Below the pieces are notes generated by a model. That model made no database searches. It saw only the letters and a list, made by a program, of their open reading frames with translations, and was not told the DNA's origin. A program made the translations under genes and the position numbers. A stretch of DNA of 64,000 bases from contig JAKCPI010005477.1 in NCBI GenBank assembly GCA_023213315.1, positions 94,060 to 158,059 of the forward strand, read 5' to 3'. This DNA comes from Euborellia annulipes (Eukaryota > Arthropoda > Insecta > Dermaptera > Anisolabididae). Shown here one piece after another: positions 3,095 through 61,477 of this stretch (position 1 is the stretch's first letter; every line of letters starts with the position of its first letter).

Positions 3095-3358
3095 GCTTAA
3101 ATCGTGGTTTATTTTAGCAAATATTAAATAAATAATTACAACGTTTCGGCTGCTAATCCTGCAGCCATCATTAGGTAGATTCTTTCATTTTTACCAATGA
3201 ACACTAACTAGAGGACACTAGCTAGAAGCTAATTATACCTAACCCTCAGTGTTAATTGTTAAAAATGAAAGAATCTACCTGAAGATGGCTGCAGAATTAG
3301 CAGCCGAAACGTTGTAATTATTTATTTATTATTTGGTACAATAAACCACGATTTAAGC
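3095..3358. mobile_element. Snap-back element with hammerhead-like core
   Basis: A 264-bp palindrome. The left arm starts GCTTAAATCGTGG and the right arm ends CCACGATTTAAGC. Both arms contain AACGTTTCGGCTGC or its complement. Each arm encodes, reading inward to outward on its own strand, a hammerhead-like core (right arm 3279-3313; left arm on the minus strand near 3138-3172 with CTAATGA instead of CTGAAGA). No reading frame is present. The family is inferred to be a non-autonomous relative of Penelope-like retroelements. A hairpin-ended element starts directly after it. Confidence 0.65.
3279..3313 (+). ncRNA. Hammerhead-ribozyme-like motif
   Basis: CTGAAGA (3279-3285) matches the invariant CUGANGA box. 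After a single T comes stem II, GGCTGC (3287-3292) paired with GCAGCC (3300-3305), six of six. The GAAA box follows at 3306-3309, then CGTT. TAC (3276-3278) can pair with GTA (3314-3316) as a 3-bp stem I. Helix III would rest on the palindrome AACGTT, suggesting a very short or dimeric helix. Self-cleavage is inferred from the pattern only. Confidence 0.55.
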
Positions 3359-4087
3359 AAAAAGTCTATTGTGTGATTAATGCACAGTACACAACTTTCT
3401 CTTGCCTTCGGTAATCGAAAGCAGTGTACGCCAGATTATTTTATGTCGAGATATATCTAGTTTCCCCATAAGATCTTAGTTCCTAATATGCGTTTTAAAT
3501 GTTGACTGCTTGAATTTTTCAAAATTCCAATCCCATATTTGGATATTTTATACACAATAGGGAATTCTAAATAAATACAAAATTTCATGAGAATTGAGAA
3601 AATTTTTTTTAATGTGTAAAGAGTTCCAAAGAAGACCCGACCTCTTTTGAATCGAAATTAAAGTGTAAATTCCCATAGGGATTTAACATTGGCTCTATGG
3701 AAGGAATGTGAATTTAAAAAATCTGAACTACTACATCAGTAAAGTGTATTTCAAAAACAATTTTCAGGACAAAATGAGAATATACATTTTACAGAAGATC
3801 TAAAAAAAAAATTGATTTATGAATTTTAATCAAAATCGTTAGAACTGATTTTTTGACTGTCCGGGAGGGTACATAACTTAAATATAAAATTTCTAACTCG
3901 TAGCTCAATTCCTTCATACAATCGTTACACACAGACACCCACACAGTCAAATTTGCGGGACCCACTTGTTTGGACTCGGGGACCTCAAAACATGTATATC
4001 CATCAAAATCTCGACATCGAATTTTTGACATGATCGCAATACTTTCTCTCTCTATATATTTCATATATAGGGTAAGAGAAAGTAAAA
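3359..4087 (+). mobile_element. HPE copy, long subtype
   Basis: HPE is the dominant repeat here. This copy has a decayed 5' hairpin (CACAACTTTCTCTTGCC / GGTAATCGAAAG) and the long-subtype interior with TTAAATGTTGACTGCTTGAA. It ends in the standard 3' block: TCAAAATCTCGACATCGAA, ACTTTCTCTCTCTATATA, then GGTAAGAGAAAGTAAAA. No coding capacity was seen, so it must be moved in trans if it is mobile. Confidence 0.75.
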
Positions 4088-4533
4088 TGTATTTTTCTAA
4101 TTTCTTAAAATACTTTGATGGATTCTAGAAAACTCCTTACAAAGATTTATCCCCTCCCCTTATTTGAACAAACAGTTGTACTTACATTAACAAAAAGATT
4201 TTCGAAAGGAAAATTTTTCAATTTTTAATCAAAATAACACAATCTTAAATGTTCTTATCAAATTATCTGCCATTTTTTTTTTTGCTTGCGGAAAAGAATT
4301 GAATATTTTTCATTTGTTATGATAGAAGAGGATATTTAAAAACAAAATCTGATGTGACCACCATCTATGCTTTTAAAAGAATCTTGTAGTAAGATATGAT
4401 GAGTCAGTGAATGTGTTGTTTAACGATTACGAAACATCTTGTACTTAGATTAGAGATGTGTACTTTGGAAAATGCACGACTTAAAATTTCTTCCTTCTTT
4501 CTAATATAAATTTTATTATCCCATAATAAGACT

Positions 4534-5040
4534 AAAAAATTTGGTGTGACTGGTCGTACAGCACTTTAAATTTATAAACATGGAAAATAATTATATTTTG
4601 TTACCATGGCAACCATCCTCCTTTGAAGTACAAGAGTAAAGTGGTCTTCAAACAATTTTGAGAGCAAAATGAGAATATACATTTTAAAGAGCATCTAAAA
4701 AATAATTGATTTTTTAATTTTAATCAAAATCGTAAGAGCGAATTTTGAGAAAATCAAAAAAAAAAAACTGAAAAAGTACATCAGTAAAGTACTAGTACTC
4801 TTTGGCCGATTTTGTTCAAAAGCTTCGTGTCAAGTCCCAGGAAGGCGCCTAACTTAAATATCAAATTTCAACCTCCTAGCTCTTTTCGTTCTTGATTTAT
4901 TTTGTTCACAGACACACATGTTGCGAAACCCCTTTGGATTCAGGAAACGTGTATATCCATCAAAATATTGAATTTTTGACATGCATCCAATACTTTCTCT
5001 CTCTATATATTAACATATATAGAGGTAAGAGAAAATAAAA
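4534..5040 (+). mobile_element. HPE copy, short subtype, 5' hairpin truncated
   Basis: Starts with TTTGGTGTGACTGG but the return arm of the hairpin is missing. The interior carries the family's TTGTTACCATGGCAACCAT block and ACATCAGTAAAGTACTAGTA. It ends in ACTTTCTCTCTCTATATAT and GGTAAGAGAAAATAAAA. Confidence 0.75.
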
Positions 5041-5190
5041 AATGAATATTATTAATATAGTAGTTAAGAGAGTGTCAAAGTATAAGAGACAAAGTAGAGT
5101 TATTAGAAGAAAGTTCATCAGTGATGCGTGAGTGATTATTTTTGAAAGGCTTGTTAAATAAAAGTAAACTGTTGGAGGGGAGTTTAATTA

Positions 5191-5360
5191 CCGCGAGAAA
5201 CCGGCAGGGCATAGTCGGCTGGAGCGGCGCCGTTCTGGCTCGCAGCCTACGCGCCGGCTCCGGGGTTTTCCGGAAGTTCCGGTATTCCCTGGTTTCCGGT
5301 TCCGGGGTTGCTCGGAGGCGCCTGCCGCCTCCGGGCGGCTCCTCGCCGCCAGGCCTGCCA
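5191..5360. other. Isolated G+C-rich island
   Basis: About 170 bases of G+C-rich sequence, with repeated CCGG and TTCCGG motifs, in otherwise A/T-rich DNA. It is open on both strands (83 codons on plus 5142-5393, 98 on minus 5075-5371), as expected of stop-poor G+C-rich DNA. The translations are Arg/Pro/Gly-rich without a recognisable domain. Possibilities are a recent foreign insertion, a CpG-like promoter island, or an exon of an unrecognised gene. Confidence 0.4.
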
Positions 5361-5424
5361 AACATATTCATTTTTAACCCTATGCCAAAGTGATCATATA
5401 TGAATATAATTCACTAAAAGTCCC

Positions 5425-5460
5425 ACAAAAAATCTGGTGTCTGCTCGCACAGCACACTAC
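5425..5460 (+). repeat. HPE 5'-hairpin fragment
   Basis: AAATCTGGTGT followed by GCACAGCACAC is the outer left arm of the HPE 5' hairpin. The rest of the element is absent. Confidence 0.5.
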
Positions 5461-5470
5461 TTTCTATAAG

Positions 5471-5902
5471 GAACGGTTGCTTCAGTTCTAATTAATTAGC
5501 TATCCCTCGGATAAAATAATTTACTATGACTTTCAATTCTTTTCACATCTAGTTAAGCTAAACATATGATTAAATAAGAGCTCAAAGCTAAGACTCGAAG
5601 TTAGGTATAACTAAAATTAGAAACACAACGCTTGTTTATTTTATTTTAATTTTTGTTAAAAAATTAATTAGGCTTAATTAATTATTTTTAATATTTATTT
5701 TAATAAATTTTATTTTTATAAATGATGCCTTTATTAAGTTGCTAACTTCACACAACTTTCTTTATACATCAGATAGCCATTTATATGTGAAAAAAAAACA
5801 TTTTTTTAACTCGAAGATTAAGTGTGTTCTTGTTTACTATATCCACAATTTGCTAGGGTTCGGATTAGTTTACTAATTGACTAGAATTGAAGCAACCGAC
5901 CC
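5471..5902. mobile_element. GGTTGCTTC terminal-inverted-repeat element, copy 1
   Basis: Ends are inverted repeats: GGTTGCTTCAGTTCTAATTA at the left and a GACTAGAATTGAAGCAACC block at the right. It also contains TAGCTATCCCTCGGAT and TAGTTAAGCTAAACATATG, which recur inverted at 12,049-12,557 and 45,712-45,898. The outer bases fit GGGCCGGTTGC. No reading frame was found and the superfamily was not assigned. Confidence 0.65.
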
Positions 5903-5998
5903 TCAGTATGAAAGGCCGAGAACTGGATAAACTCCAACCCTAAATCCCAGTCTATTGATCTTTTTTATATATATAATTCGGTAATTGAAAAGTTAGTT

Positions 5999-6113
5999 CA
6001 TGCTTGTCACACCATTAAAATATATTTAGTTTCTGTTATTGTATTAGAATTCAAGATGTGAAATTTCTAAACATAGGTCTATAAAAATCTTTATATTTTG
6101 TTACCAAGGCGTG
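5999..6113 (+). repeat. HPE internal fragment
   Basis: Begins at the return arm of the 5' hairpin (TGCTTGTCACACCA) and runs through ATATATTTAGTTTC to TTGTTACCAAGGC, collinear with other HPE copies, then stops. Confidence 0.6.
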
Positions 6114-7059
6114 TGTTATCTAAAATTGAAAAAATCCTGTACGGTTGGCTCTACAAGAGTTGCCTAATGTGCTCGAGAATGGAGCCTTGAACTTAGTCAA
6201 CGAAACCAATATTTTTTAAAATAAATAAATCTTCATTTCTTAATGCAACTGAAGGGGAAAAGCTAATTTTAGGACAACACTTCCGACGGCTAGCGCAGTT
6301 TGGTTGTCTAAGCTCAAGGCAGTAAGATACTTGTGGCTCCGACTGTCACCCAGTGATATAGGAGTTGTAGTATTATATTTTATTATAATACATTTACCTG
6401 CCCGATTGGCATTTGTTGCTGTATGAGCAGTGTCTAATAATAATAAGAGAAAGTAGCTAAGATTTCCCTCTAAGGTGTAGAGAAAGCTGAAAGCGACTAA
6501 GCAATTTACATGTGTATAGTTTCTTATAACAAAATTGAAGAAAAACTTTTCAAATGTCCTAAATAAATAATAAATCTTGCGAAAAATATTTAAATAATTT
6601 TGGGATGGGATTTTAATAGGAACTCTAGGAAGATATGAGCTTCAACTGAGGTCAACGTATGTACACTTTTCACTGATATAGATAATACTATATACTAAAG
6701 AAGTGAAACTTGTACGCAAAATAACGCAGCATTTATATATTTTTAATAAATATTTAATACAAAAATGTGGTCTATAATTAAAAATTCTCCTAATAAAATT
6801 ATTGAATATTTGATTTATTAACTGATTTTCGAGGTAAAAATGTGTTGAGTCTAAACGCATCGACACACCGTTGACAGCGATACTATCTTTTTAAATATTT
6901 TCTAAAAAAAAAAAAATTTCAGGTCATTTCTTTAAATTTAATAAAGCTAATTGATAAAGAAAGAAAATAAGGGTCTCTTTGATAATGAGTCAAATTACTC
7001 TATATGGCGCCTCTTTCTGTTGCTATTCAGTACAATATCTTGCTTGTTCAATGAAGTCT
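6114..7059. other. Gene-free stretch
   Basis: Mixed A/T-rich sequence with no repeat shared elsewhere in the window that I could see. A 74-codon minus-strand frame at 6642-6866 is A/T-rich and without motif. Confidence 0.45.
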
Positions 7060-7265
7060 TCTCCAACTATGGCAGATACAAAAGCCAAATTGGACCGGCG
7101 CCGATCCAAAACTCATCGTGTATTGGGAAACTGAGTTGGATTGGCGACCGTAAGCTGGCATTGCTGGATTTCTATCGGGACCAAAATCCACAGAGCCAAG
7201 TCCACGAGCCATGGATTTGTCCTTGCCTTGTGTGGTAGTTAACCGAGCCAGAGCCAAAACATGTG
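7060..7265. other. Balanced-composition island of unknown nature
   Basis: About 200 bases with clearly higher G+C and complexity than its flanks. It is open on the plus strand (frame 6951-7238) and on the minus strand (7048-7257). There are no convincing splice sites and no recognised domain. It could be a decayed exon, a SINE-like unit or a MITE. Confidence 0.3.
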
Positions 7266-8055
7266 CAGCGTTGCAGATTGATATTTTTTTTTTTTTTTTT
7301 TAGATTCTTTTGATATTTTTCTTATATTTTGTGAAGAGATTTTAATTAGAATAATTATTAAAATATTTTTTTAACAAAATTTTGAAAAAGTACTAAAATT
7401 AATATAATTATGAGTGACATGACTTTTGATGAGGGCAAGTTTAAATGATCAAGGATAACCATCCATCCCGCATTTTGCTTTGCATTTTTTTTCAATGATC
7501 AGCAAAATGTCCTATATTTTATTTCAAACTGTTTTTTTTTTTCACTTGTATTAAAGATTTTTTATTAACTTACTATTTACAACTTTTTTTCAATAAATTA
7601 TAAAAAATGCAAATTTTTTAAATCTCTGCCTCCATTCCCCTACCTTTAAGCATAAAAAATTTCTCTATCCGTCTCTGCTTCGATGCTATTTTCTCTTTTC
7701 GTCATCCCACGAGAGTGTTGAGTCCTGAAAGAAAGCTGCCTTCGTTAATCACATGACAACTATATTAACTCGAATAGGAGCTTCTTTAATTAAAGAATCA
7801 TGTTCTTATTACCGGGTTTGAGATTCAAGAAAAAAAAAATACTTCCCCCACCACCTGCATGATCATCAGGCATTTGTCAGAATTCATTTGCGACGGCCTT
7901 TCTATTATCTGATGCAACAGCCAGGACACCTTCGGATTAAAAGACGTTCCATTATCTAATCACAAGCGCAATTATAGGAAGAAGTCTGAGTTAAGCTTTA
8001 AAGTTGAGTATCAACAAATAATTAACAAGAAAAATTATTTATTAAAATACAGTTC
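7266..8055. other. Gene-free stretch
   Basis: Starts with a long T run (7,283-7,302) and stays A/T-rich. Nothing was recognised apart from poly-A/T tracts. Confidence 0.45.
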
Positions 8056-8898
8056 GATTATTATTATGGAAGTTTTTAATTATAGACCCTATTTTTGTAT
8101 TAATTATTAAAATATAAATACTGTACAACGTTCCGACTACTTATTCCGCAGTCGTTTTCAAGTACTGTGCACATTCTCCGATTCAAGCGAACTAACCTCT
8201 AAGGGAATCCTACGTGAAGTTAGCAGCATTTTATATGCAATGAAGTTAGCAACACACACAATCATCTCAATGAAGTAAGACACCATCATTACCTCATGGG
8301 GATGATTGAATATGTTGCTAACTTCATTGCATATAAAATGCTACTAACTTCATGTAAGTGTCCTTTAGCAACGGACAATCATCCCCATGAAGTTAGACAC
8401 CATCATCTCTATTTAAATAAAACTCCATTATGTTTATTAAAGCTTTTGTGGTTTGTATTATTATTATATGAGTTTTTAATTATAGACCTCATTTTGTTAC
8501 TAATTATTTATTAAAAATATAAATATTGTACAACGTTTCGACTACTTATTCCGCAGTTGTATTCAAGTACTGTGCACTTGGTTCGAATCAAGCGAACTAA
8601 ACTCAAAGGGACACCTACGTGAAGTTAGTAGCATTTTATATGCAATGAAGTTAGCAACATACACAATCATCCCCATGAAGTTAGACACCATCATTACCTC
8701 ATGGTGATGATTGTATATGTTGCTAACTTCATTGCATATAAAATGCTACTAACTTCATTTAGGTGTCCTTTAGAGGTTAGTTCGCTTGAATCGGAGAAAA
8801 TGCACAGTACTTGAAAACGACTGAGGAATAAGTAGTCAAAACGTTAATAATTAATACAAAATTTGGTCTATAAGTAAAAACTTCCATAATAATAATAA
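8056..8898. repeat. Tandemly duplicated snap-back repeat
   Basis: A block of about 350 bases occurs twice in direct orientation (8,056-8,400 and 8,460-8,800) and each copy is itself palindromic. The arms contain TGAAGTTAG, AATGAAGTTAGCAACA and TTGCATATAAAATGCTACTA. The outer arms hold ACAACGTTYCGACTACTTA and its complement with TTGAAAACGACTG, a degenerate hammerhead-like pattern: TTGAAAA, C, a GACT/AGTC stem, GAAACGTT. The second palindrome is complete and is interrupted at its right edge by a 1.9-kb TA-flanked element. Confidence 0.6.
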
Positions 8899-10533: not shown

Positions 10534-10690
10534 TAAAATTAAGGAAATCTGTCAATTTGGTTTCAACAAAATTTTTTAAAATTTAAGGAAATCTGTCAAT
10601 TTCGTTTCAACAAAAATTTTTAAAATTTAGGTAAATAGTAATTCGTTTTACAAAATTTTTTTAAATTTAAAGGAAATCTTGTCAGTTTTT
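10534..10690. repeat. Short tandem array, about 45-bp period
   Basis: Three to four imperfect units, each with AAGGAAATCTGTCAATTT and TTTCAACAAAA, lie near the right end of the TA element. Its left end carries similar words in inverse orientation, so this is probably subterminal repeat structure of that element. Confidence 0.55.
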
Positions 10691-24457: not shown

Positions 24458-24620
24458 AGACCCTGTTACGCATTAGTGTGTCAAGCGCCAAAAAAAATTA
24501 AAAATTGAGTTAAGCACGGAATATTGTTTCAAATGCTATAATTAATAGTATTTTTTATGAAATATGTCCTAAAAAAATTTATATTTAATGTTACTTGCAC
24601 AATTGACAAAAAAAGATATA
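24458..24620 (+). mobile_element. GGACCC foldback, left half
   Basis: TAGACCCTGTTACGCATTAG, TGTGTCAAGCGCC, AAAAATTGAGTTAAGCACGG and ACTTGCACAATTGAC match the left part of the family. It stops where the next copy begins, in opposite orientation, creating a large inverted pair. Confidence 0.75.
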
Positions 24621-24864
24621 TGGACCCTGTTACGCATTAGTGTGTCAAGCTACCGAGTTTTGAGAAAATTAACGTTTTTTGTTTTGATTAGATTATTTAG
24701 TCTATAATCTTTTTTGTCAATTGTGCAAATAACATTAAATATAAATTTTTTTAGGACATATTTCATAAAAAAATATAATTAATTATAGCATTTGAAACAA
24801 TATTCCGTGCTTAACTCAATTTTTAATTTTTTGGCGCTTGGCACACTAATGCGTAACAGGGTCC
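24621..24864 (-). mobile_element. GGACCC foldback, full copy
   Basis: Starts TGGACCCTGTTACGCATTAG and ends CGTAACAGGGTCCA; 244 bases. Terminal inverted repeats are about 30 bases (through GTGTGTCAAGC). The family has no frame. The 4-bp target duplication seen at 34.4 kb is only three of four here (ATAT / AAAT), probably because it inserted into or next to another copy. Confidence 0.75.
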
Positions 24865-25780: not shown

Positions 25781-26249
25781 AGTAAAATTATTTAATACGT
25801 GATGTTGGACTAGGTTATAAATGAATTAAATATTTTATTTTATAACTAGATATATTTCGGGCTATTAACCCATCCAGGAGTTACATATGAGAGTTGTCAT
25901 ATGGGCCGTTTATTTTGAAAGTGATGTAAGTCCATTTTTTTATTGTTTTGAGAAAATGAAATGTTATTAAAAAATTTATTTACCGACCAATTTTCAATTG
26001 TACAAAACATGGGAATTTTTTAAGAAATTTACCACTTGCTAGTTATACATAGAAAATTTACATTAATTTAAGCATAAATTATGTGATTCCTCATTTTAAA
26101 AAAAAATGGACTTAGACCACTTTCAAAATAAACGGTCCATATGTAACTGAGGATGGATTAATAGCCCAAAATATATCGAGTTATAAATTAAAATATTTAT
26201 TTCATTTATAACCTAGTGAAACCTCACATATATTAAATAATTTTTCTTA
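25781..26249. mobile_element. Snap-back element with hammerhead-like core
   Basis: Arms of about 155 bases (25,781-25,942 and 26,097-26,249) share TTATTTAATAC.., CTAGGTTATAAATGA, CGGGCTATTAACCCATCC-type and CCGTTTATTTTGAAAG blocks. The right arm has CTGAGGA and the left arm (minus strand) keeps GGGTTAATAGCCC followed by GAAATATATC. Together they restore a complete core by comparison, though neither arm alone is intact. Confidence 0.6.
26147..26171 (+). ncRNA. Degenerate hammerhead-like motif
   Basis: CTGAGGA (26147-26153) fits CUGANGA. A T and a short GG..CC stem follow, then CAAAA where GAAA is expected. The other arm, on the minus strand (25,851-25,880), has a proper GGG..CCC stem and GAAA but a damaged first box (CTGGA). 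Decay from an active ancestor is inferred. Confidence 0.35.
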
Positions 26250-26575: not shown

Positions 26576-26593
26576 TTACTAAGAAGTTTTCTA

Positions 26594-26813
26594 TCAGGAA
26601 TGAAAGTTAGAAGAAAACGCAGGCAAAATTTTTTCTTTAAAAATATATTTTAACAGCTGACGTTTCGGCTTCGACCAATAACAGCTCCGAGGATGGCTTT
26701 GACCGAAGCCGAAACGTCAGCTGTTAAAAAATATTTTTAAAGAAAAAATTTTGGCTGCGTTTTCTTCTAACTTTCATTCATGATACAAATTCCACCAGCC
26801 ATAAAATACCCTT
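26594..26813. mobile_element. Snap-back element with near-intact hammerhead
   Basis: Arms run from GAATGAAAGTTAGAAG and TTAACAGCTGACGTTTCGG to their complements ending CTAACTTTCATTC at 26,779, followed by an unpaired right tail (ATGATACAAATTCCACCAGC...). TTACTAAGAAGTTTTCT before the element and ATACTTAGAGCTTTTCT after the tail (near 26,815-26,831) match at 13 of 17 positions and may be a decayed target duplication. Confidence 0.65.
26680..26725 (+). ncRNA. Hammerhead-ribozyme-like motif with full stem I
   Basis: Stem I AACAGCT (26680-26686) pairs perfectly with AGCTGTT (26719-26725). The first box is CCGAGGA (26687-26693), one base (U4 to C) off CUGANGA. Stem II is GGCTT (26695-26699) with AAGCC (26706-26710). 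GAAA (26711-26714) is followed by CGTC, putting the predicted cleavage site after GUC at 26718. All three helices and spacing agree with a type I hammerhead having a minimal, possibly dimeric, helix III. The U4 change would be expected to reduce or abolish cleavage. Confidence 0.6.
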
Positions 26814-28384: not shown

Positions 28385-29090
28385 TATTTAACTATAACAA
28401 TTAAATATTTAACAAAAAATCTGGTGTGAGAAGCACAGAACACAACTTTCTCTTACCAGTGTGCTTGTCACACCAGATTTTTCTGTCGAGATGTTTCCGC
28501 AGATATATTCGAATTAAAATTTATAAACATGGGAAAATATTTATATTTTGTTACCATGGTAACCATTTCTCCTATCTTTCTTATGAAGTACAGTGCTTCA
28601 ATAGATTTGAAAGTCAAAATGAGAATATTCATTTTAAAGAGCATCTAAAAAATATTTGATTTTTGAATTTTAATCAAAATCGTTGTAACGAATTTTGAGA
28701 AAATAGAAAAAATTAAATCAATAAAGTACTAGTACTTTTTATCCGATTTTGTTCACAAGCTTCGTGTTACGCCTCAGGGAGGTATTGAACTTAAATATAA
28801 AATTTCAACCTCCTAGCTCTTTTCGTTCTTGAGATATTTTGACACAGACAGACCATGTCACGAAAACCACTTTCTTGGATTCAGGGCAGGGGCGGATCTA
28901 GGGGGGGGCAGTGGGGGCATGTGTCCCGGGCGGCAGATATCAGGGGGGCGGCAATTAAAGAAAGATTTATTAATTTTAAACTGGTAACCGTTGGCTCTAG
29001 TTGAAACATTTTGCTTTAATAGGAGAATTAAATTTAAGTGCACAAGATTTTCTGTTTCAATAATATATTAATTTGATATTAACACTGGAT

Positions 29091-29122
29091 GCGCATTTTG
29101 ACACCATATGTGTCATCTTCAG
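29091..29122 (-). ncRNA. Hammerhead-like motif, left arm
   Basis: On the minus strand: CTGAAGA (complement of 29116-29122), T, GACAC pairing with GTGTC around ATATG, then AAAA in place of GAAA, then TGCGC. First box perfect, second box with one substitution (G12 to A). Confidence 0.4.
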
Positions 29123-29146
29123 AAGCGATCAGTATGTAATTCGCTT

Positions 29147-29178
29147 CTAAAGATGACACATATGGTGTCGAAATGCGC
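29147..29178 (+). ncRNA. Hammerhead-like motif, right arm
   Basis: CTAAAGA (29147-29153; G5 to A), T, GACAC (29155-29159) pairing with GTGTC (29165-29169), GAAA (29170-29173), TGCGC. Each arm thus has a different single core defect, and a consensus of the two is intact. Confidence 0.4.
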
Positions 29179-29495
29179 AACAAGTGTTAATATCAAATTA
29201 AAATATTATTGAAACAGAAAATCATGTGCACTTAAATTTAATTCTCCTATTAAAGAAAGATTTACTAAAATAAAAAAAGGCAAAATGATATTAATTTTGT
29301 ATAGAAAATTTTAAGGGAGGGGCGGCAAATTAAATTTTGCCCCCCCCCCCCCCTAAAAAATCTCCTAGTTCAGGGCCTGATTCAGGGGACCTCAAAACGT
29401 GAATATCCATCAAAATCTCGACATCCAATTTTTTACATGAATCCAATACTTTCTCTCTCTATATTAACATATATATAGGTAAGAGCAAGTAAAAA

Positions 29496-32640: not shown

Positions 32641-32644
32641 GGGA

Positions 32645-34119: not shown

Positions 34120-34387
34120 AATTTTTCTTTAAATTCCCCATTTAAAATTATTTTCTAATAATTTATATTCTAAATGAAATAATTTGGATCGTTGCCAATT
34201 ATCTATTAGCATAGGGTTGCGCCCCCCCCCCCTACCCTCCCACCCTCCCACCTCTCTCGGAAGCTCTTGCCTAAAGGTGCTAGGCCAACCTGATAGAACA
34301 GGCTTTTGTACGGTGCAAATATTATTAATGGGAGTAGGCTATTAAATTAGCTTTTTTAGGATGTTTTCTTTTATGACTGACCCTAAA

Positions 34388-34642
34388 TGGACCCTGTTAT
34401 GCAATAATGTGCCAAGCGCCAAAAAAAAAAAATTAAAAATTGAGTTAAGCACGGAATATTGTTTCAAATGCTATAATTAATAGTATTTTTTATGAAATAT
34501 GTCCTAAAAATATTTATATTTAATGTTACTTGCACAATTGACAAAAACAATTATATAGAATCTAATCAAAACAAAAAACTAATGTTAATTTTCTCAAATC
34601 TCGGTAGCTGGCTCTTGACACACTAATGCGTAACAGGGTCCA
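34388..34642 (+). mobile_element. GGACCC foldback with empty-site evidence
   Basis: Full copy: TGGACCCTGTTATGCAATAA at the left and ACTAATGCGTAACAGGGTCC at the right. AAAT flanks both sides once the element is taken as GGACCC...GGGTCC. The paralogous site in copy A (about 20,565-20,585) reads CTGATCCCAAATAGAATTAG without insertion, which fixes a 4-bp AAAT target duplication. Two halves of unequal sequence sit between 30-bp inverted ends. No frame. Confidence 0.85.
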
Positions 34643-35202
34643 AATAGGATTAGATTAAAAAAAAAAAAAGCAAAAATCAATTCATAATTAAATTTTTTTT
34701 TTCTTTAAATTAAATAATTTCTTAGTTTAATTCATCAAATTTGCATTTTAAAATTTGATATTGAGATTACAAAATTTAATTCAATTTACTTTTCATTAAA
34801 AATTTTTTTTTCTCAAAATTTCATTAATTTTAATAAAAAAATTTGATTTTCGGTTTATTATATGCAATCATTAGTGTCAGATCTGACACGTTGTGGTTAC
34901 TCTAAGGAGTAACTTTCATGGGAATAATACTGAGGTGGGTTCCCGTTTCTTCCTAGGATTAATAGATTAGATAATTTATTGCCATGAGGTGGATTTGGAG
35001 GTTGGATGCACCATGCCAACGAGATGGATTTTTATTTATTTTTGAACTTGCTTCTTCTCTTGAATCTATTTGTGGATGAATCAACGAGAATTTCTTTCAT
35101 TTTAGGCCTCTTTTGAATAATTGTTGTTATTAGCTCTCTGTGCCTTCTAATCTTTAGCTAGATCGTCTTTTGTTAGGATGCCTTATTTTGTTTTTAATTT
35201 AG

Positions 35203-39325: not shown

Positions 39326-40278
39326 TTTAATCTTCAAAATAAATCAAGGAATAAAAAGTCCCCTAATTATTAAACAATATTTTTCTAAAAACTTAAAAAA
39401 AAAAAAAAAAAATGATTTGATTTTTTTTTTTTTTGTTAATTCGTCTAACCGGCAAAATTAAGAAAACAAGGGACAAGTGATTTGGGACCCTTCGAGAAGA
39501 AAGGTCCATTATGAAAAGAGGCTTTCAGCTTGTTGGCCTTATGGAGATAAACTATCTGAATAAGGAATAATTGAGCTGAGAATGGATATATTGTGTTTTT
39601 TCCTGACTTAATAATGCAATGAAAACACTTTGAAGTCGACAAGCTTTTAGTGCGATAGCTGATTAATGGCTAACTTTATTTAATTATCAAATCGAATTCA
39701 TTAATAATTAGTTGCCACCTAAGAGAATATTTATATTCGTCAGGTGACAAACCCGAATTGACTAAATAACGAACGTGTTTTATTACTTTCTTTTATATGG
39801 TGAGGAAAGTATTGCGATCATATCAAAAATTCGATGTTGAGATTTTGATGGAAATACATGTTTTGAGGTCCCCTGATTACAAAAAAGTGGATCCCTCAAA
39901 ATGATCTGTGTGTGTGTGTGTGTCAGTGAACAAAATATCTCAAAATGAAAAGAACTAGGAGGTTGAAATTTTATAATAACGCTGGCACGTGACAGAATTT
40001 GAACAAAATCGGTCCAAAAATATTAGTACTTAACTGATGCACTTTTTCAGTTTTTTTTTTTTCGATTTTCTCAAAATTCGCTCTTACGATTTTGATCAAA
40101 ATTCATAAATCAGCTAGTTTTTAGGTGCTCTTTAAAATGTGTATTCTCATTTTTTCCTGAAAATTGCTTGAAGTACACTTTACTCATGTAGTATTTCTGA
40201 TTTTACAAATTCAATTAGGATAGGATGGTAGCCTTCCGGGACGCAGCAGCCAAGTAAAAATAAAAACGTTATATCCTG

Positions 40279-40321
40279 TCGCCGACGTTTCGAGTGCTAG
40301 TCGCACTCATCTTCAGGGCAA
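40279..40321 (-). ncRNA. Hammerhead-ribozyme-like motif, left arm
   Basis: Minus-strand copy identical in its core to the right arm: stem I TTGCC with GGCGA, CTGAAGA, T, stem II GAGTGC with GCACTC, GAAA, CGTC. See the right-arm entry for geometry. Confidence 0.65.
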
Positions 40322-40412
40322 GCAGAAATGTCAAACATAAGTACACACTGTACCACACCACCATGAGTACAGGTGGTGTGGTACAGTGTGTACTTATGTT
40401 TGACATTTCTGC

Positions 40413-40455
40413 TTGCCCTGAAGATGAGTGCGACTAGCACTCGAAACGTCGGCGA
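40413..40455 (+). ncRNA. Hammerhead-ribozyme-like motif, right arm
   Basis: Stem I TTGCC (40413-40417) pairs with GGCGA (40451-40455), five pairs including one G-U. CTGAAGA (40418-40424) matches CUGANGA. After T comes stem II GAGTGC (40426-40431) with GCACTC (40437-40442) around GACTA. GAAA (40443-40446) then CGTC puts the predicted cleavage after GUC at 40450. Helix III would be only A-C/G-U, or ACGT pairing between two molecules, as in the minimal hammerheads of Penelope-like elements. All core positions are intact. Confidence 0.7.
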
Positions 40456-40725
40456 CAGGATATAACGTTTTTTATTTTTACTTGGCTGCTGCGTCCCGGG
40501 AAGGCTACCGTCCTCTCCTAATTGAATATCTACAACCTTCAAACTCAACAATTTTACAAATTCATTTTCCGGCTCTTCCTTTCATAGAGCCATTGTTAAA
40601 TCCCTATGGGGATTTGTATGTTAATTTCGATTCAAAAGGGGGTGCCCCTTTGGAACTTTTTACGCATTTAAAATTTTTTTTTCCAATTCTTATGAAATTT
40701 TGTATTTATTTAGGATTCTCTATTG

Positions 40726-42109: not shown

Positions 42110-42600
42110 GTTGGAATTTTTTTAGATTTTTGCTTATATTTCGAAAACTAAGCATATTTTGTCCACCACAGTTCAATACACAGTTGTAGAGCATTAAATT
42201 TGCTAAAATATGGTCCATAAAACTAATTTGAAGATTTAATATTAACCGAGATACGATCGGTCAAAATCAGACCTCAAAAATCTTGGACTTTTTCAGTTTT
42301 TCGCTTATATCTCATAAACTAAGCATATTCTGTGTAACATAGCGCCATACAAAGTTGTAGAGCATTAAATTTTCTAAAATTTGGTTCATAAAACGAAATT
42401 GTAGATCAAATATTAACCGAGGTACGGCCGGTCAAATTTAGACAAAATTTTACATTTCGAGAAAATTTGTCTAAATTTCTATCTCGGTTAATATTGGGTC
42501 TATAAATTCGTTTTATGTACCAAATTTTAACAAATTTAATGCTTTACAATTTTGTCTTGAACTGTAGTGGACAAAAATCTGCAATTGCATAGAAATCCAG
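42110..42600. repeat. Repeat with two direct units and one inverted unit, copy 1
   Basis: Units at about 42,118 and 42,290 (period about 172) share TTTTTGCTTATATYTC, AAACTAAGCATATT, GTTGTAGAGCATTAAATTT and ATTAACCGAGRTACG. A third, inverted unit lies at 42,476-42,598 (TATCTCGGTTAATATTGGGT ... TTTAATGCTTTACAATTTTG). The same 2+1 layout occurs at 57,180-57,675, so it is a family trait. Confidence 0.7.
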
Positions 42601-45209: not shown

Positions 45210-45437
45210 GACCGTTGGTTCTAGTTGAAACATTTTGTAAATTAAAATTAAACACTAGGTTATTTGTTTTTATTAATTAAAAATTAACACTTGATACTTA
45301 TTTCGACAATTCCTTGTAATTATCAGAAGTGATTACATTCTAATGATGACAAAGAATTGTCAAAATACGTTAATTTTTAATTAATAAAACCTTTGAAACA
45401 AATAACCTAGTGTTTATTTTGTATATTTAATTTTAAT
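45210..45437 (-). mobile_element. Snap-back element related to the one at 29.0 kb
   Basis: Starts with the tail block CCGTTGGTTCTAGTTGAAAC, as at 28,990. Arms follow: AAATTAAAATTAAACACTAG to the complement ending ATATTTAATTTTAATGT. The core regions read CTGATAA..GAAA on the minus strand and CTAATGATGACAA on the plus strand. Target duplications are not clear because the host HPE copy is damaged. Confidence 0.6.
45301..45326 (-). ncRNA. Degenerate hammerhead-like motif
   Basis: Minus strand: CTGATAA (complement of 45320-45326, one base off CUGAUGA), a partly lost stem around AAGGAATTG, then GAAA (complement of 45301-45304). The opposite arm (45340-45365, plus) has CTAATGA, T, GACAA paired with TTGTC, AAAA. 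The consensus of both arms is a complete core. Confidence 0.35.
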
Positions 45438-50417: not shown

Positions 50418-50790
50418 TGTATGAAAAGGGAAATCGCTAAGATTTTAGCTGTAAATAAAAATCAATTTCGATGAGTATATTTCGGAAGCATTAACAGCAA
50501 TCCTTCATCAGCAGCTAATTCACACTATGAAACCACATAATGTGTCACAAATTGTTTTATCAGAGCGAATTGTTGGATCCCATTAGGGATCGCATCACGT
50601 TGGAAATATCACTGTATCAACAATTTGCTCTAATAAAACAATTTGTAACACCTTATGTGGTTTCATAGTGTGGATTAGCTGTTGATGGAGTATTGCTGTT
50701 AATGCCTCCGAAATGTACCGATTTTAAAACTCACCGAAATTGATTTTTATTTACTGCCAAAATCTAAGTGATTACCTTTTCCTTATTCAT
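50418..50790. mobile_element. Snap-back element with hammerhead-like core
   Basis: Arms from TGTATGAAAAGGGAAATCGC and ATAAAAATCAATTTCG to their complements, with a centre around GGATCCCATTAGGGATC. Both arms share ACAGCAATCCTTCATCAGCAG / GCTGTTGATGGAGTATTGC and ACACTATGAAACCACATAA. The arms have diverged by scattered substitutions, so the copy is not young. Confidence 0.65.
50480..50511 (-). ncRNA. Hammerhead-like motif with canonical CTGATGA
   Basis: Minus strand: CTGATGA (complement of 50505-50511), A, a short stem GGA with TCC around TTGCTGTTAATGC, then GAAA (complement of 50480-50483) and TATAC. The other arm (50,679-50,715, plus) keeps a GGAG/CTCC stem and GAAATGTAC but has a damaged first box (TTGATGG). 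Confidence 0.4.
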
Positions 50791-53829: not shown

Positions 53830-53832
53830 GAA

Positions 53833-54399: not shown

Positions 54400-54402
54400 G
54401 AA

Positions 54403-55728: not shown

Positions 55729-55794
<66 letters not shown>

Positions 55795-55935: not shown

Positions 55936-56048
55936 GGAGAAACAACGAAAATATATTTATAATTATTTATTTATTTTGGACCAATGGTAGACAACTTCTA
56001 GCTAAGTAGGGCCTGCTAAAAATGGCCTTGGATATTATTTGAATTATT

Positions 56049-56705
56049 TTATTTTTACTTTCTCTTACCTATATATGTCTTTATATATATATAGAAGAAC
56101 ACATGTATATATATTATGTATACCCCAAAAGCCTCAAAAAGAGGTAAGGGGAAAAAATGGAATAAATAAATAAATAAGAGGGAAAATATTGGATTCATGT
56201 CAAAAATTCGATGTGGAGAATTTGACGAAAATACACGTTTGAGTTCAAAAAAGTGGTTCCCGAAACATTGTGTTTAATTTTAGCATAAAGAAATTAAACT
56301 ACAAGGTTGAAATTTTATATTTAAGTTAGGTACCTTCCCGGACACTCAAAATAAGCTTTTGAACAAAATCGTCGAAAAAGTACTAATACTTTACTGATGT
56401 ACTTTTTCCAGTTTTTTTCGATTTTCTCAAAATTCCCTCCAAGGATTTTTTTTTAAATTCATAAATCAACTATTTTTTAGATGCTCTTTAAAATGTATAT
56501 TCTCAATTCGCTCTCAAAATTGTTTGAAGCACACTTTACTCCTGTACTTCTTAAGAAAGATAGCAGAAATGATTTATAAATTTTATTCTAATATATCGGC
56601 GGAAACTAAATTTATTTCGACACAAAAAATATAGTGTGTGAGCACAGAACACAACTTTCAATTACCAAAGGTAAGAGAAAGTTGTGTGCTGTCCAACCAG
56701 ATTAA
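56049..56705 (-). mobile_element. HPE copy, short subtype, full length
   Basis: From TTTTTACTTTCTCTTACC (3' end, with an A/T-rich insert to about 56,190) through TCAAAAATTCGATGTGGAGA, GGTACCTTCCCGGACA and AAGTACTAATACTTTACTGA to TCGACACAAAAAATATAGTG and a partial 5' hairpin ending CTGTCCAACCAGATT. The CATGGCAACC block is deleted. Confidence 0.75.
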
Positions 56706-56870
56706 TTTTAATATTCCAATTCTTAATTTACTATTTTATTAATTATTCGAGTTTAAAAAAATCTTTATTTTCAAAGAATTCAAATTTTCAGAATAAACAA
56801 CGATTTATTATTATACTAGTAACATCAACTCACTATATTAATAAGAACCTGACAACACCCACGTTCATAT

Positions 56871-57020
56871 ACCATGGGGAACATAAACATTTGCACCCTG
56901 AGCCATTTGAAAGACGCCTACTGTTAGGCAGCCCAATTGACTCACCACTACATATGCACTGTCTGTGTGAATTTACCTGAGGTAGGGGTTCTGAGGGTCT
57001 TTTAGGATAGACCATAAACC
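56871..57020 (-). repeat. 150-bp inverted pair, copy 1
   Basis: Reverse complement of 59,639-59,788 with one difference in 150 bases that I could find (CACTGTCTG against CAGTGTCTG). Balanced composition; contains the small hairpin GCCTA..TAGGC. The minus strand is open (MVYPKRPSEPLPQVNSH...), as is copy 2, but there are no splice sites or longer context. Near-identity means very recent duplication or strong constraint. Confidence 0.7.
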
Positions 57021-57179
57021 ATCCCTTTGGACAATAAATAAATTTTAAATAAAGAATTTGCGAATTCCTCTTCTAGACACCGAAAAAAAACTTAAATTCA
57101 ATTTTTAGCTTTTAATGTTTGCTTTTGTTTAATTCGTAGGGTTGGAGAAAAACAAAAAAAAAAAAAAAACTCAAAATGT

Positions 57180-57675
57180 GTGTACTTTTTTCAGTATCTC
57201 GCTTATATCTCTTAAACTAAGCATATTTTGTGCACTCCCCCATAATAAATTAGAAAGAGTATAAAATTTGGTTGATAAAACGAATTTTCAGACCAAATAT
57301 TAACCGAGATTGGGCTGATCAAAATTTCTTTTTTTCATTTCTAAATACTTTGAACTTTTTTCAGTTTTTCGCTTATATCTCGGAAACTAAACATATTCTG
57401 TGCATTTTAATACATAATAAAGTTGTAGAGCATTAAATTTGCTAAGATTGGGTTAATAAATCGAATATTTACACCCAATATTAACCGAGATACGGCCGAT
57501 TAAAGTTAGACCAAGTTCCTCGAAATGTAAAACAAATAGAAACTTTGATCGACGGTATATCGGTTAATATTGGGTCTAAATACGCGTTTTAATAACGAAA
57601 TTTTAGCAAATTGAATGCTCTACAACTTTGTATTGTACTCTGGTGCACAAAATATGCTTAGTTTATGAGATAGAA
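57180..57675. repeat. Repeat with two direct units and one inverted unit, copy 2
   Basis: Units near 57,185 and 57,355 (period about 169): TCGCTTATATCTC, AAACTAARCATATTYTGTGCA, ATTAACCGAGAT. The inverted unit is at 57,552-57,672 (TATCGGTTAATATTGGGTCT ... GCTCTACAACTTTGTATTG). Same layout as 42,110-42,600. An HPE copy abuts its right end. Confidence 0.7.
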
Positions 57676-57684
57676 AACAAAAAT

Positions 57685-58363
57685 AAAAAAATCTGGTGTG
57701 ACTGGCGCACAGCACACAACTTTCTCTTACCTTCGGTAATCGAAAGTTGTGTTCTGTGCTTGTCACACCAGATTTTTTGTGTCGACATATATTTAGTTCC
57801 CGACAGTACGGAACATTTGAATTCAGATGTAAAATTTATAAGTATGGGAAAATATTTATATTTTGTTACCATGGCAACCATTTCTCCTATCCTTCCCTAT
57901 GAAATACAAGAGTAAAGTGGTCTTCAGAAGATTTCAATCGCAAAATGAGAATATACATTTTAAAGAACATCTAAAAAATAATTGATTTTTGAATTTTAAA
58001 AAAAATCGTTGGAGCAAATTTTGAGAAAATCGAAAAAAACTGAAAAAGTACATCAGTAAAGTACTAGTACTCTTTGGCCGATTTTGATTAAAAGCTTATT
58101 TTTCCGGTCCCGGGAGGTGTTTAACTTAAATATAAAATTTCAACCTCGTAGCTCAATTCCTTCATCCTTAAAATTGAACACACACACACACACACACAGA
58201 CAGACAGACAGACAGACCATGTCGCGAAAACCACTTTTTGGATTCAGGGGACCTCAAAACGTGAAGATCCATCAAAATCTCGACATCGAATTTTTGACAT
58301 GAATCCAATACTTTCTCTCTATATATATATTACATATATACATAGGTAAGAGAAAGTAAAAAT
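57685..58363 (+). mobile_element. HPE copy, short subtype, complete
   Basis: Reference for the short form: hairpin AAAAAAATCTGGTGTGACTG, GCACAGCACACAACTTTCTC, TTACCTTCGGTAATCGAAAG, TGCTTGTCACACCAGATTTT; then TTGTTACCATGGCAACCATT, ACATCAGTAAAGTACTAGTA, (AC)n(CAGA)n, CCATGTCGCGAAAACC, AAAATCTCGACATCG, ACTTTCTCTCTATATATATA and GGTAAGAGAAAGTAAAAATG. Its 3' third is virtually the same as the two young long copies. Confidence 0.85.
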
Positions 58364-58530
58364 GAAAAAGTTCTAAAATTTTGAGGTTTTTGCAACCCCC
58401 TCTCCCACTCCCCCCAAGTTAGTACAGGGTCCTCGAGGTCAAAAACTTTGGATAGATCCTAGAGTACCCCCAAATAACCTGTAAAAATTTCTACAAGCAA
58501 AGGGCTCAACACATTATTAATAAATAAATA
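58364..58530. other. Short gene-free segment
   Basis: Contains CCCCCTCTCCCACTCCCCCC. No other feature. Confidence 0.4.
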
Positions 58531-58820
58531 TGCCCTCGGGGCATGGCGTAGAGGTTAGCGTGCTAACCTCATATTCCAAACGTCGCGGGTTCGGACCCCA
58601 GGCAGTCCGATGATTTTATTTAAGGCACTTGGATACCAAATGGCTTAAATAAGAATGCCTGGACCCCATATATGTATATTTATCAATAACGGATATCGTA
58701 AAAAGTCTTATATGGCCTCAGTTGCCGAAAAGACTGTGTGAATGTGTGTGTGAGTGTGAGTGTGAATGAGAAAAAAGTGTGAGTGTTTCGATTTAAAAAA
58801 AAATAAATAAATAAATATTG
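58531..58820 (+). repeat. tRNA-derived SINE, full length
   Basis: The head has an A box (TGGCGTAGAGGTTAGCG) and an excellent B box (GGTTCGGACCC), so a Pol III promoter is visible. The body has CTTGGATACCAAATGGCTTA, GGACCCCATATATG, a hairpin GTCTT..AAGAC around ATATGGCCTCAGTTGCCGAA, then TGTGTGTGAGTGTGAGTGTG and an A-rich/AAAT tail. Other copies are at 22.2, 28.2 and 59.2 kb. Confidence 0.75.
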
Positions 58821-59152
58821 TCTATATGTCCGGTGTTCATATTATTTTGTCTTATTCGACGTAGCGGGGGGGGGGGTTCAAATCTCCCCCTTAGGACCCA
58901 AGCCATGACTAGATATTTAAGATATATAATACAAATTAAATTTCATATAGGGTAAGAGAAAATAAAATATTGATAATTTACTCTAGCTAAAAAAAAAATT
59001 AAAAAAAAAAACGAATTATAAATACCCTAAAAAAAATATTTCAAAAAATTACAATATTACAAATATCATCGTGATATTATAAAATATAAGTCCATCATAA
59101 CTTATACATTTAAATATCTGGGCAACAAATGAATAGGCCAGAATTAATAGAT
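58821..59152. other. Gene-free segment with an HPE end scrap
   Basis: A GGGGGGGGGG run at 58,866 and, at 58,939-58,967, TTTCATATAGGGTAAGAGAA AATAAAAT, the last bases of an HPE copy. Confidence 0.45.
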
Positions 59153-59262
59153 TTTCAAAGTCTTAAATGGCCTAAGTTGCCGAAAAGACTGTGCGAATCT
59201 GTGTGTGAATGTGAGTGGAAATGAGAAAAAAGAATGAATGTTAAAAAAAAAAAAAAAAAAAT
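59153..59262 (+). repeat. tRNA-derived SINE, 5'-truncated
   Basis: Matches the 3' part of the 58.5-kb SINE: AAAGTCTTAAATGGCCTAAG, TTGCCGAAAAGACTGTG, GAATGTGAGTGGAAATGAGA and an A tail. The head is missing, as usual for truncated retroposons. Confidence 0.7.
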
Positions 59263-59412
59263 TACATCTGAATTCTAATATACCGGTATCAGAGGAAACT
59301 AAATATATGCCAACACGAAAAAATCTGGTGTGACAAGCACAGAACACAACTTTTGATTACCAAAGATAAGAGAAAGTTGTGTGCTGTGCGATCAGTCACA
59401 CCAGATTTTTTC
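59262..59412 (-). repeat. HPE 5' end fragment
   Basis: Includes GAGGAAACTAAATATATGCC, ACACGAAAAAATCTGGTGTG, a hairpin with ACTTTTGATTACC / GATAAGAGAAAGTTGTG, and CAGTCACACCAGATTTTTTC. The rest of the element is absent. Confidence 0.7.
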
Positions 59413-59490
59413 TTAATAAGAATATTTTAACACCCGAGATATTATTATAAAGGTCTATAGATATCGGAGAAATTTTATTAAAAATTGGGA

Positions 59491-59525
59491 TAGTAGGCGT
59501 CTTTCAAATGGCTCAGGGTGCAAGT
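59491..59525 (+). repeat. 35-bp partial copy of the 150-bp repeat
   Basis: GTAGGCGTCTTTCAAATGG, CTCAGGGTGCAA is identical to the corresponding part of 59,639-59,788, 250 bases away. It shows the 150-bp unit is not simply one duplicated gene segment. Confidence 0.6.
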
Positions 59526-59638
59526 TTCGTCCAAAATTTGAAATAAGTTAATTTTTTCCAAATAACAAGATGAAATTAAAAAAAAAAGTTTAAATATTGA
59601 GATAAAAAAAAGGCTACGCTATATTGCTGAAAAGAGGT

Positions 59639-59788
59639 GGTTTATGGTCTATCCTAAAAGACCCTCAGAACCCCTACCTCAGGTAAATTCACACAGACAC
59701 TGCATATGTAGTGGTGAGTCAATTGGGCTGCCTAACAGTAGGCGTCTTTCAAATGGCTCAGGGTGCAAATGTTTATGTTCCCCATGGT
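59639..59788 (+). repeat. 150-bp inverted pair, copy 2
   Basis: GGTTTATGGTCTATCCTAAA, CCCTACCTCAGGTAAATTC, GGGCTGCCTAACAGTAGGCG and TTATGTTCCCCATGGT. Open in the frame that begins MVYPKRPSEPLPQVNSHRHC, identical to copy 1 except for one residue. No protein family was recognised. Confidence 0.7.
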
Positions 59789-60749
59789 ACAAATTGATGT
59801 TTATACGAATAAAACGAATGAAGGTTCAGTAAATATCCCATGAGGTTGTTCAAATTTTTCAGAGAACAAATAGTATAAACAATATATATATCTGTCCATT
59901 AGTTTATTTTATTGAGTCCAACACCCTACTTAAGAACACATCTCTCAATTAAAAAAAGAGAAAGGATTATAAATAATAAAAAAATTTATTATCCCCAAAG
60001 ACATAATCATATGATGTGCTCCTAAAGACAAAAGAATTATGTATTTTTTAATGTTTCGAACTAGGACATTCTTAAATAAATCATCAAAATCAATATTTGG
60101 GTGTCACGTACAAAGTCAGAAAACTCATAAAATAACGGAGATAATGAATCCAAGAGTTAAGTTCATTGCTCGGGGCACACAGCACTCCTTGAAGAATTAA
60201 AATGAAATTAATAAAAAAAAAAAAAAAGAGAAAGAAAAATGGTTCAAGACGTTAACAAATTATATAGATTAGCATATGAAATTTATTTTTATTAAAAAAA
60301 AAAATTGTTTGGGTTTAAAAGAGAAATAACATTATTGTTTTCTAATCTTTTTTAATGCTACTGTTTTGATTTCGATCTAATAAATTAAAGTTCTCTGTTG
60401 AAAATTAATTAATTGTGACTAAGAAAAAAATATTTTATTGGCGAAGGGAATTTTCAATTCGCTTGTTTATGTTATAATGTTTAAAGTGTGTAATTTGTTT
60501 GGTATGAAAGCTTTTTATTGGGTGTTTTTAAGGCGCAGGCTTTGCGGGGTCGAACACCAGGGCCGAAGTCAGGAGGGGGGGGGGGTCAAACCCCTCCTGA
60601 AAAGAGAAATATATAAAGAGAAACATAGTGTTATTGAATAAAATTTTAAATACAATTAGAAATTATAATAAATATTTTAATTCAAGATTTATATATAGAT
60701 CATGGGTGTTGGTCCATGAAGTAATTATGTTTTTGTTTATGCTCTAATG
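59789..60749. other. Gene-free stretch with a MITE end
   Basis: CAGGGCCGAAGTCAGGAGGG at 60,560 followed by CCCCTCCTGAAAAG looks like the left end of a hAT-like MITE; no right end was found. The rest is A/T-rich. Confidence 0.4.
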
Positions 60750-61065
60750 CAGTGTTTCCCAACCTTTTGAAGTCCACGGCGCCCCAAAGGTGCGTTGGGA
60801 ATAACATTACACACTAGGGGCACCCTTCCTTTTTTCCTCTAGCAAAACGAAATTTTAAAGCTAAATTTTTTCCCGCACTCCGAAAAATTTTTGCCGCTTG
60901 CGTTTTAATCGGGCAACGGATTTTTAAATTTATGCTGCCCTGCGGATAATTTTTTTTACCCTTCTGTAAAAATCATTTGACCTTTTTTTTATTTTAGCAA
61001 AGCTAAATTTTTCCTCACCCCGGGTAATTTTTGCCACTTGCGTTAAAATCATTTTACCTTTTTTA
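60750..61065 (+). mobile_element. Left end of a hAT (Charlie-like) element
   Basis: CAGTGTTTCCCAACCTTTTG and CACGGCGCCCC are typical of hAT/Charlie left termini and resemble the MITE at 40.7 kb. The interior repeats AAAATTTTTGCCGCTTGCG-type words. A matching right end was not seen; an HPE 3'-end scrap (61,066-61,120, TTTTTACTTTCTCG, GAGAAAGTATTGTAATCG) follows. Confidence 0.55.
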
Positions 61066-61247
61066 CTTTCTCGTATAGAGAAAGTATTGTAATCGTAAAA
61101 AAATTCGACAAATTCACTGTTTATATTTACATGTTTTTTAATGACACCTGCATGATTTTGTTTTGATTTTTTTATCAAAATTAACGAAAAATGTCGTTTT
61201 CTTCTGTGATTATTTCAAAAATCATTATATTATTATAAATCATTATT

Positions 61248-61465
61248 CAGGCTAGGTGAAAGGCGAGGAAAAAAATCCGCAGACAGTTATATTTCATTAT
61301 TTTTATTCCATCATGTTGACGTTTCGATCCCGGTCGGGATCATTCGGGATCGAAACGTCAACATGATGGAATAACATTAAACGAAATACAACTGGCTGCG
61401 GATTTTCTTCTCCTTTCACCTATCCTGATTGAACTACCAGCTACAAGCCCTACGTATTTACTTAT
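61248..61465 (+). mobile_element. Snap-back element with 12-bp duplication
   Basis: TAAATCATTATT flanks both sides (61236-61247, 61466-61477). Arms run from CAGGCTAGGTGAAAGG and TCATGTTGACGTTTCGATCC to the complement ending TTTCACCTATCCTG. An unpaired right tail (ATTGAACTACCAGCTACAAG) resembles the tail of the 40.2-kb element (ATTGAATATCTACAACCTTC). The hammerhead-like core is degenerate: on the minus strand GAATGA, TCCC..GGGA, TCGAAACGTC. Same class, decayed catalytic part. Confidence 0.7.
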
Positions 61466-61477
61466 TAAATCATTATT

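Follow-up and report, generated by a model that had tools for sequence, protein, structure and literature searches.

Short snap-back elements with a hammerhead core in the earwig Euborellia annulipes are probably non-autonomous Penelope-like elements inserted head to head

What are the short snap-back elements that recur along one stretch of the genome of Euborellia annulipes with differing arms and a common core motif, and how did they come to be inserted as inverted pairs? The window analysed here, the whole 64,000-nt stretch C3945:94060-158059 of the 903-Mb genome assembly on which all genome-wide tests were run, is 70% A+T, and the longest stop-to-stop open reading frame (ORF) anywhere in it measures 133 aa. 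It holds nine such elements, named below by their position in kilobases (3.1, 8.1, 25.8, 26.6, 29.0, 40.2, 45.2, 50.4 and 61.3), all of which are short and encode nothing, none having a single ORF with reverse transcriptase and GIY-YIG endonuclease domains. We consider it likely that they are short non-autonomous Penelope-like elements (PLEs), inserted by priming from both ends of a cut target, with the resulting complementary DNAs (cDNAs) joined head to head. The predicted identity of the cores as type I hammerhead ribozymes and the kinship with Penelope are well supported by sequence comparison; the mode of insertion is one that we infer.

A sequence-only reading of this window had proposed nine snap-back elements sharing a hammerhead-type core but with unrelated arm sequences. 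Inverted repeats were verified for 9/9 hairpins, and the common core was borne out by matches ending in GAAACGT, of which the window has 5 (3279+, 3174-, 26687+, 40418+ and 40316-) against 0.17 expected. The seven families also stood, but the arms are not nine unrelated sequences: 3.1 groups with 8.1 (77% similarity across 57 nt) and 29.0 with 45.2 (63% across 288 nt), and the assignments of 8.1 and 45.2 rest on these similarities. The core layout consists of a CTGANGA box, a single unpaired base, stem II, GAA and then helix III, which is usually palindromic.

Because a loose form of the motif gave 18 matches in the window against a mean of 14.7 in shuffles, that form proves nothing. Conversely, an exact pattern (CTGANGA, 11-31 bases, CGAAACGTC) occurs 45,689 times genome-wide, against 5 occurrences of the same pattern reversed, and the first 100 of these places (contigs C1-C26) provided the core neighbour and stem statistics. 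Among these 100 listed cores, stem II pairs only when a single unpaired base follows the box (T 60, A 36, G 2, C 2). The third pair of the stem is of Watson-Crick type in 77%, with wobble pairs making up another 10%, compared with 39% expected for any standard pair. Covariation in stem II, suggested earlier as a check, was likewise recovered: in 42 distinct 33-nt cores from the genome, 84.1% of stem II cells are paired versus 63.5% after shuffling, the covariation score reaching 0.591 versus 0.211, with 0/500 shuffles as high in either case and slid controls at or below 0.163. Two further stem II measures did not discriminate, namely pairs changed on both sides (188/500) and further pair types (68/500). 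Stem I pairing at positions 1, 2 and 3 reached 92, 94 and 72% versus 66, 47 and 50% shuffled, in 36 distinct flank pairs that are not all independent, many belonging to one family. Stem I is thus built by the two outer flanks, and conserved CUGANGA and GAA surround a covarying stem II, both as in a type I hammerhead. The usual hammerhead consensus has zero bases between A9 and stem II, from which the listed cores depart in carrying one unpaired base after A9; a viroid hammerhead is said, in the title of a paper, to have an extra core nucleotide.

A covariance model trained on 42 cores from elsewhere in the genome and run on the window returned strong matches at 40284- and 40418+ (E 6.6e-10), 26687+ (2.6e-5) and 3279+ (3.1e-5), followed by 3140- (E 0.004) and 61318- (E 0.006), and gave no match at 8.1, 25.8, 45.2 or 50.4. 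Weak matches were found at 29100- (E 1.2), 61338+ (3.8) and 967+ (0.55), the last of which (967-1000) lies outside all described elements.

The core listings were also read for helix III, by inspection and with no statistic attached. Hammerhead helix III begins with A15.1-U16.1 and is followed by H17, and after GAA the cores have a self-complementary stretch, palindrome or hairpin, and then H17. This stretch varies among families but remains self-complementary: the pattern-selected cores have ACGT, 25.8 has ATATAT, 50.4 and the PLE loci L118, L122 and L127 have ATAT, PLE locus L130 has ACTATAGT and PLE locus L139 a hairpin, ACC-CGAC-GGT. Within family 29.0 both ATGCGCAT and ATACGTAT occur, together with a wobble intermediate, ATGCGTAT. 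The change from ATGCGCAT to ATACGTAT is compensatory and falls within a single arm, so it is not explained by the hairpin of the element itself. An alternative helix III for 50.4, ATG-TACT-CAT, was rejected, as genome copies have ATAT.

If the cores belong to Penelope, the same genome might be expected to hold an autonomous PLE with reverse transcriptase, GIY-YIG and this core, as the sequence-only reading had anticipated, and such elements were found, with the core downstream of the endonuclease region. GIY-YIG matches numbered 118 among the 150 scored of 710 candidates. In L141 and L142, ORFs of 825 and 822 aa encode a reverse transcriptase domain and match GIY-YIG above the Pfam cut-off; both loci are inverted pairs (arms 99.3% and 99.5% identical), with cores located downstream of the ORFs and also near the centre of the pair. 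In a strict scan, a same-strand core was located downstream of the GIY-YIG region at 11/30 loci (L113, L114, L124, L128, L130, L132 and L136-L140); L112 showed only the core of its inverted partner, and at L123 the core lies outside the PLE copy. A looser scan of 8 of the 17 loci left without a core recovered a full one in 4 (L118, L122, L127 and L129). The PLE protein has its closest named relatives in insects, e.g. Coccinella septempunctata at 36% identity, and no solved structure matched it.

Two comparisons connect these elements to the short ones. Across 86 nt, the 26.6 element is 73% similar to the core-bearing region that follows the GIY-YIG match of L128. The firmer connection comes from outside the window, from loci selected for carrying the core of L142: three (L221, L222 and L223) correspond to the 3' region of this 822-aa element and all lack an identical 109-bp stretch with an exact junction, and pieces of a fourth (L240) stop at those bases or beside them. 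One of these, L221, is a short snap-back whose core-bearing part is 93-96% identical to L142. A 109-bp deletion common to several loci implies that the short form itself spreads, with proteins made elsewhere. As a separate observation, L242 (C646:70380-71780) is a near-palindromic locus of 1.3 kb (91% identity) that carries a 25.8-type core at each end and gave no match to PLE protein.

How the arms are arranged, and what lies at their outer ends, bears directly on insertion. Among neighbouring listed cores less than 600 bp apart, 17 pairs run minus then plus, 0 plus then minus, and 1 lies on the same strand, with differing stems; opposite-strand neighbours hence point outward in 17/17. Opposite-strand GIY-YIG pairs within 6 kb point outward in the same sense in 9/9 (hand count). 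The ends of 17 core pairs (L221 and L224-L239) showed direct repeats of 12-14 bp in 10, 10 bp in 2 and shorter in 5, and 9/10 of the pairs with 12-14-bp repeats have an extra 20-31 nt on one side and none on the other, L235 being the exception. Of 28 copies of 40.2, 21 are two-armed, and in 14 of these the ends differ in length, the short one reaching 18-24 nt beyond a landmark and the long one 46-60 nt; these 14 sit inside 9-15-bp repeats, one of which is a TA run. In family 29.0, sampled as 31 copies at 29 sites picked by similarity to the window copy, repeats were 9-16 bp in 22, 8 bp in one and without an acceptable form in six, and a tail was present on one side in 30/31 copies, that of L214 being unrecognised. 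Inverted copies of the PLEs themselves have 12-15-bp repeats and a 25-51-nt tail at one side in 5/10. Clear target duplications are thus mostly 12-14 bp, and an extra tail of about 30 nt stands nearly always at exactly one end of the insertion. Inverted outward pairs, a one-sided tail and a duplication of variable length match the PLEs of this genome, as expected of their non-autonomous relatives.

Within the window, the three long target duplications noted earlier from the sequence proved exact: 12 bp at 61.3 (61236..61247 and 61466..61477), 14 bp at 40.2 (40200..40213 and 40551..40564) and 16 bp at 29.0 (28954..28969 and 29249..29264). Random pairs of window positions give a repeat of at least 12 bp in 29/400. 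Direct repeats of at least 10 bp were not found around the other window families.

Further information on how pairs form came from comparison of the two arms in family 29.0. Arms of the same copy are more similar (0.947) than those of different copies (0.887; 0/2000 permutations, 31 copies including duplicates), and in an alignment reading a subfamily insertion/deletion was concordant between arms in 30/31 copies, L208 being discordant, whereas the centres vary from copy to copy. With the longest 5' sequence as reference, 23/28 copies have a full-length tail-less arm and 3/28 a full-length tail arm, the tail-less arm being the longer in 24/28 (L204 and L215 excluded as duplicate sites, L195 unmatched), a result limited by the window copy used for selection, whose own tail arm is truncated. 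Judged by these lengths, most insertions seem to combine a complete cDNA with an incomplete one. Together, one tail per insertion and the pairing of full with truncated arms suggest priming from both DNA ends. We also noted that L208 and L215 have an identical target duplication and flanks on two contigs and different left arms, a mismatch that may reflect assembly error, gene conversion or a haplotype difference.

The likeness of arms within one copy would also follow if a single cDNA or antisense RNA folded back on its 3' end and copied itself into an inverted pair. The centres of four 29.0 copies (L190, L192, L194 and L208) are compatible with annealing of a 3' end through a CTG/CAG match, and palindromic junctions of a rotifer Penelope were interpreted as fold-back in the relevant part of an earlier study (PMC3846280). 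The copy of a tail-less cDNA should however be tail-less, yet one arm bears a tail, and copying through the primer should invert the flanks, yet the flanks are direct repeats. We therefore regard fold-back self-priming as rather unlikely.

Orientation bears instead on a second possibility, that the elements are retrozymes spreading through circular RNA made by the ribozyme, with inverted pairs as a by-product of integration. Animal retrozymes are, in the portions of PMC7229834 consulted, non-autonomous, have type I hammerheads and RNAs of about 170-400 nt, and occur alongside PLEs. Adjacent cores would then be expected as direct tandems, but they are inverted in 17/18 neighbours overall, and the 29.0 arms end upstream of the ribozyme rather than at its cleavage site, which makes this origin improbable. 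Of the kinship proposed from the sequence alone, with Penelope or with retrozymes, the Penelope part is upheld by the cores within PLEs and by the common deletion, and the retrozyme part fits less well. Foldback or miniature inverted-repeat DNA transposons, in which the core would be a chance or protein-binding motif, are also short palindromes flanked by target duplications, but with duplications ranging over 9-16 bp rather than of fixed length, ends made unequal by the tail, a core that covaries as RNA and the same core located in PLEs, we consider them very improbable.

Under priming from both cut ends, each arm would represent one PLE 3' unit, comprising upstream sequence, a putative type I hammerhead in which A9 is followed by an additional unpaired base and helix III is short or palindromic, and the 3' region. 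A PLE protein would make a staggered cut, and both 3' DNA ends would prime reverse transcription of the element RNA, one from a tail-including start site and the other from a start site that leaves the tail out. The two antisense cDNAs would then meet, a 3' end annealing through short homology, and fill-in would yield a head-to-head pair flanked by direct target repeats. Since the 29.0 arms extend 17 nt past the 5' side of the ribozyme, their template RNA was apparently uncut there, which is consistent with the published PLE whose ribozyme mutants still insert. The probable substrate of the ribozyme is multimeric or read-through RNA, processed by a ribozyme dimer in cases where helix III is no more than a palindrome, although this is a guess. 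More tentatively, and with the odds against it, the snap-back might be the normal outcome of Penelope insertion, in which one ribonucleoprotein sits at both cut ends with two reverse transcriptases, at the proximal and tail start sites, working on one RNA or on two RNAs paired by helix III. If so, the ribozyme would have been kept as much for pairing templates as for cutting them, and short units of ribozyme plus 3' end would be parasites of the Penelope machinery comparable to short interspersed nuclear elements.

Several results weigh against a PLE origin by two-ended priming. Rfam hammerhead models gave no match at E up to 10 in the window and 20 loci. By the strict scan no core was present at 17/30 GIY-YIG loci, and 4/8 of those re-scanned had no notable core even by the looser scan. 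An autonomous partner was found only for 26.6-like elements, and none for the other six window families; 40.2-like cores at L123 and C5672 were rejected as PLE parts, as target duplications place them outside the PLE insertions. A clear duplication flanks only 3/9 window elements, 7/28 copies of 40.2 have a single arm, and 7/21 of its two-armed copies show no repeat or an unclear end pattern. The pattern of full and truncated arms comes from one family only, whose copies were chosen for resembling the one in the window; comparison of arm lengths in 40.2 gave no discrimination, and the tailed arm of L141 is not the shorter of the two. Finally, the arms of L207 and L208 are less similar to each other than those of different copies.

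The state of the individual window elements ranges from intact to decayed. Element 3.1 (3083..3370; arms 90% identical as an inverted repeat) has cores at 3174-3140 (-) and 3279-3313 (+) ending GAA-ACGT-T, and a tight pattern of its family yields 34 genome copies versus 0 for the reversed control. Its relative, the compound snap-back 8.1-8.9 (8127..8845), retains a discernible stem II and GAAACGTT, and from the aligned arms appears to be a 3.1-type element with a damaged box. In 25.8 (25795..26231; arms 89%) the core reads CTGAGGA-T-GG..CC-GAA-ATATAT-C and is backed by genome copies, where it is cleaner than in the window. Element 26.6 (26588..26789) has its core at 26687-26718 (+) and a left arm ending within stem II. 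The tail of 29.0 (28970..29248) is at its left end only, with helix III ATGCGCAT in the left arm and a core backed by genome copies; related 45.2 (45214..45432, boundaries approximate) has a decayed core and a left end resembling the 29.0 tail. Arms of 40.2 (40214..40550) are 98% identical, with cores at 40316-40284 (-) and 40418-40450 (+) ending GAA-ACGT-C, also present in genome copies. In 50.4 (50475..50718; arms 90%) the core is damaged in both window arms and clear in genome copies (GAA-ATAT-A). Element 61.3 (61248..61465) keeps stem II, GAA, ACGT and C at 61343-61318 (-) and lacks the box at its centre; like the left arm of 26.6, it is truncated within the core.

Other window hairpins (486-832, and at 24.5, 34.3, 38.1, 42.1 and 57.3 kb) had no GAAACGT-ending core in the motif scan. 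Those at 24492-24832 and 34354-34676 are related and share a long arm sequence, representing another kind of element, and 42157-42576 and 57262-57691 are core-less repeats in which a common TTTTTCGCTTATATCTC stretch recurs in both direct and inverted orientation. In the window and 20 loci, Rfam also matched microRNA families of plants and animals; these matches were dismissed as long-hairpin artefacts, those inspected falling below gathering scores; the window hairpins scoring in this way as microRNA precursors (8639-8738, 26648-26729, 50522-50671 and 61276-61402) are a possible source of false annotation. A core scan of viral contigs returned 102 loci, 80 of them listed; those inspected were phage-like hammerheads and repeated coding stretches, with no snap-backs among them. 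Eleven (L039, L046, L047, L050, L051, L055, L061, L080, L084, L088 and L091) have the same core layout including the one-base spacer, and, given their flanking CCCGT/ACGGG-like arms, they resemble phage hammerheads that possess a genuine helix III.

Penelope hammerheads, inverted pseudo-long terminal repeats (pLTRs) and tails have been published previously. In the rotifer Adineta vaga, as far as the available sections of PMC3846280 describe it, Penelope has head-to-head inverted pLTRs with a tail of about 31 bp at one of them, 8-10-bp duplications, and trans mobilisation of other sequences between pLTRs; its authors preferred self-priming on an antisense template and in 2013 left the question open. 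The present elements share with it inverted pLTRs, a one-sided tail and short duplications. They differ in forming numerous short families without ORFs, where the rotifer has few copies with ORFs, and in duplications mostly of 12-14 bp, and the ribozyme core is here traced across families. The Poseidon PLE of an anole, PAc, cuts and extends both strands as a purified protein, has two start sites bounding the tail and a hammerhead near the ORF start, and still inserts when its ribozyme is mutated; this in vitro work concerned one tandem element, and the passages seen leave head-to-head pairs unexplained (PMC11167929).

Minimal PLE hammerheads without helix III, which may act as dimers, are dispersed by the thousand in non-coding DNA and also occur in pLTRs, according to excerpts of PMC7761336 and PMC6155905. 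The cores described here are similarly type I, dispersed and minimal or palindromic in helix III, and differ from those review descriptions, to the extent consulted, in the consistent extra base after A9 and in several helix III palindromes. Animal non-LTR retrozymes, in the sections cited above, form direct tandem repeats and circular RNAs (PMC7229834); non-autonomy, the type I hammerhead, a small unit and coexistence with PLEs are shared, whereas the present elements are inverted pairs. Inverted pLTRs and 3' extensions also figure in a curation guide, in the part consulted (PMC8969392). A literature search, which was not exhaustive and covered its sources in part, found no description of numerous ORF-less snap-back hammerhead families, and we claim no priority; within the same limits, a common deletion of the 109-bp type, the helix III alternatives and a counted one-tail pattern were not found described.

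Taken together, the origin of Penelope head-to-head pairs, left open in 2013, becomes testable by counting the ends of insertions, since this genome offers tens of thousands of cores, many of them in short inverted pairs. These cores also provide an extensive natural collection of minimal hammerheads, diverse in helix III and missed by Rfam.

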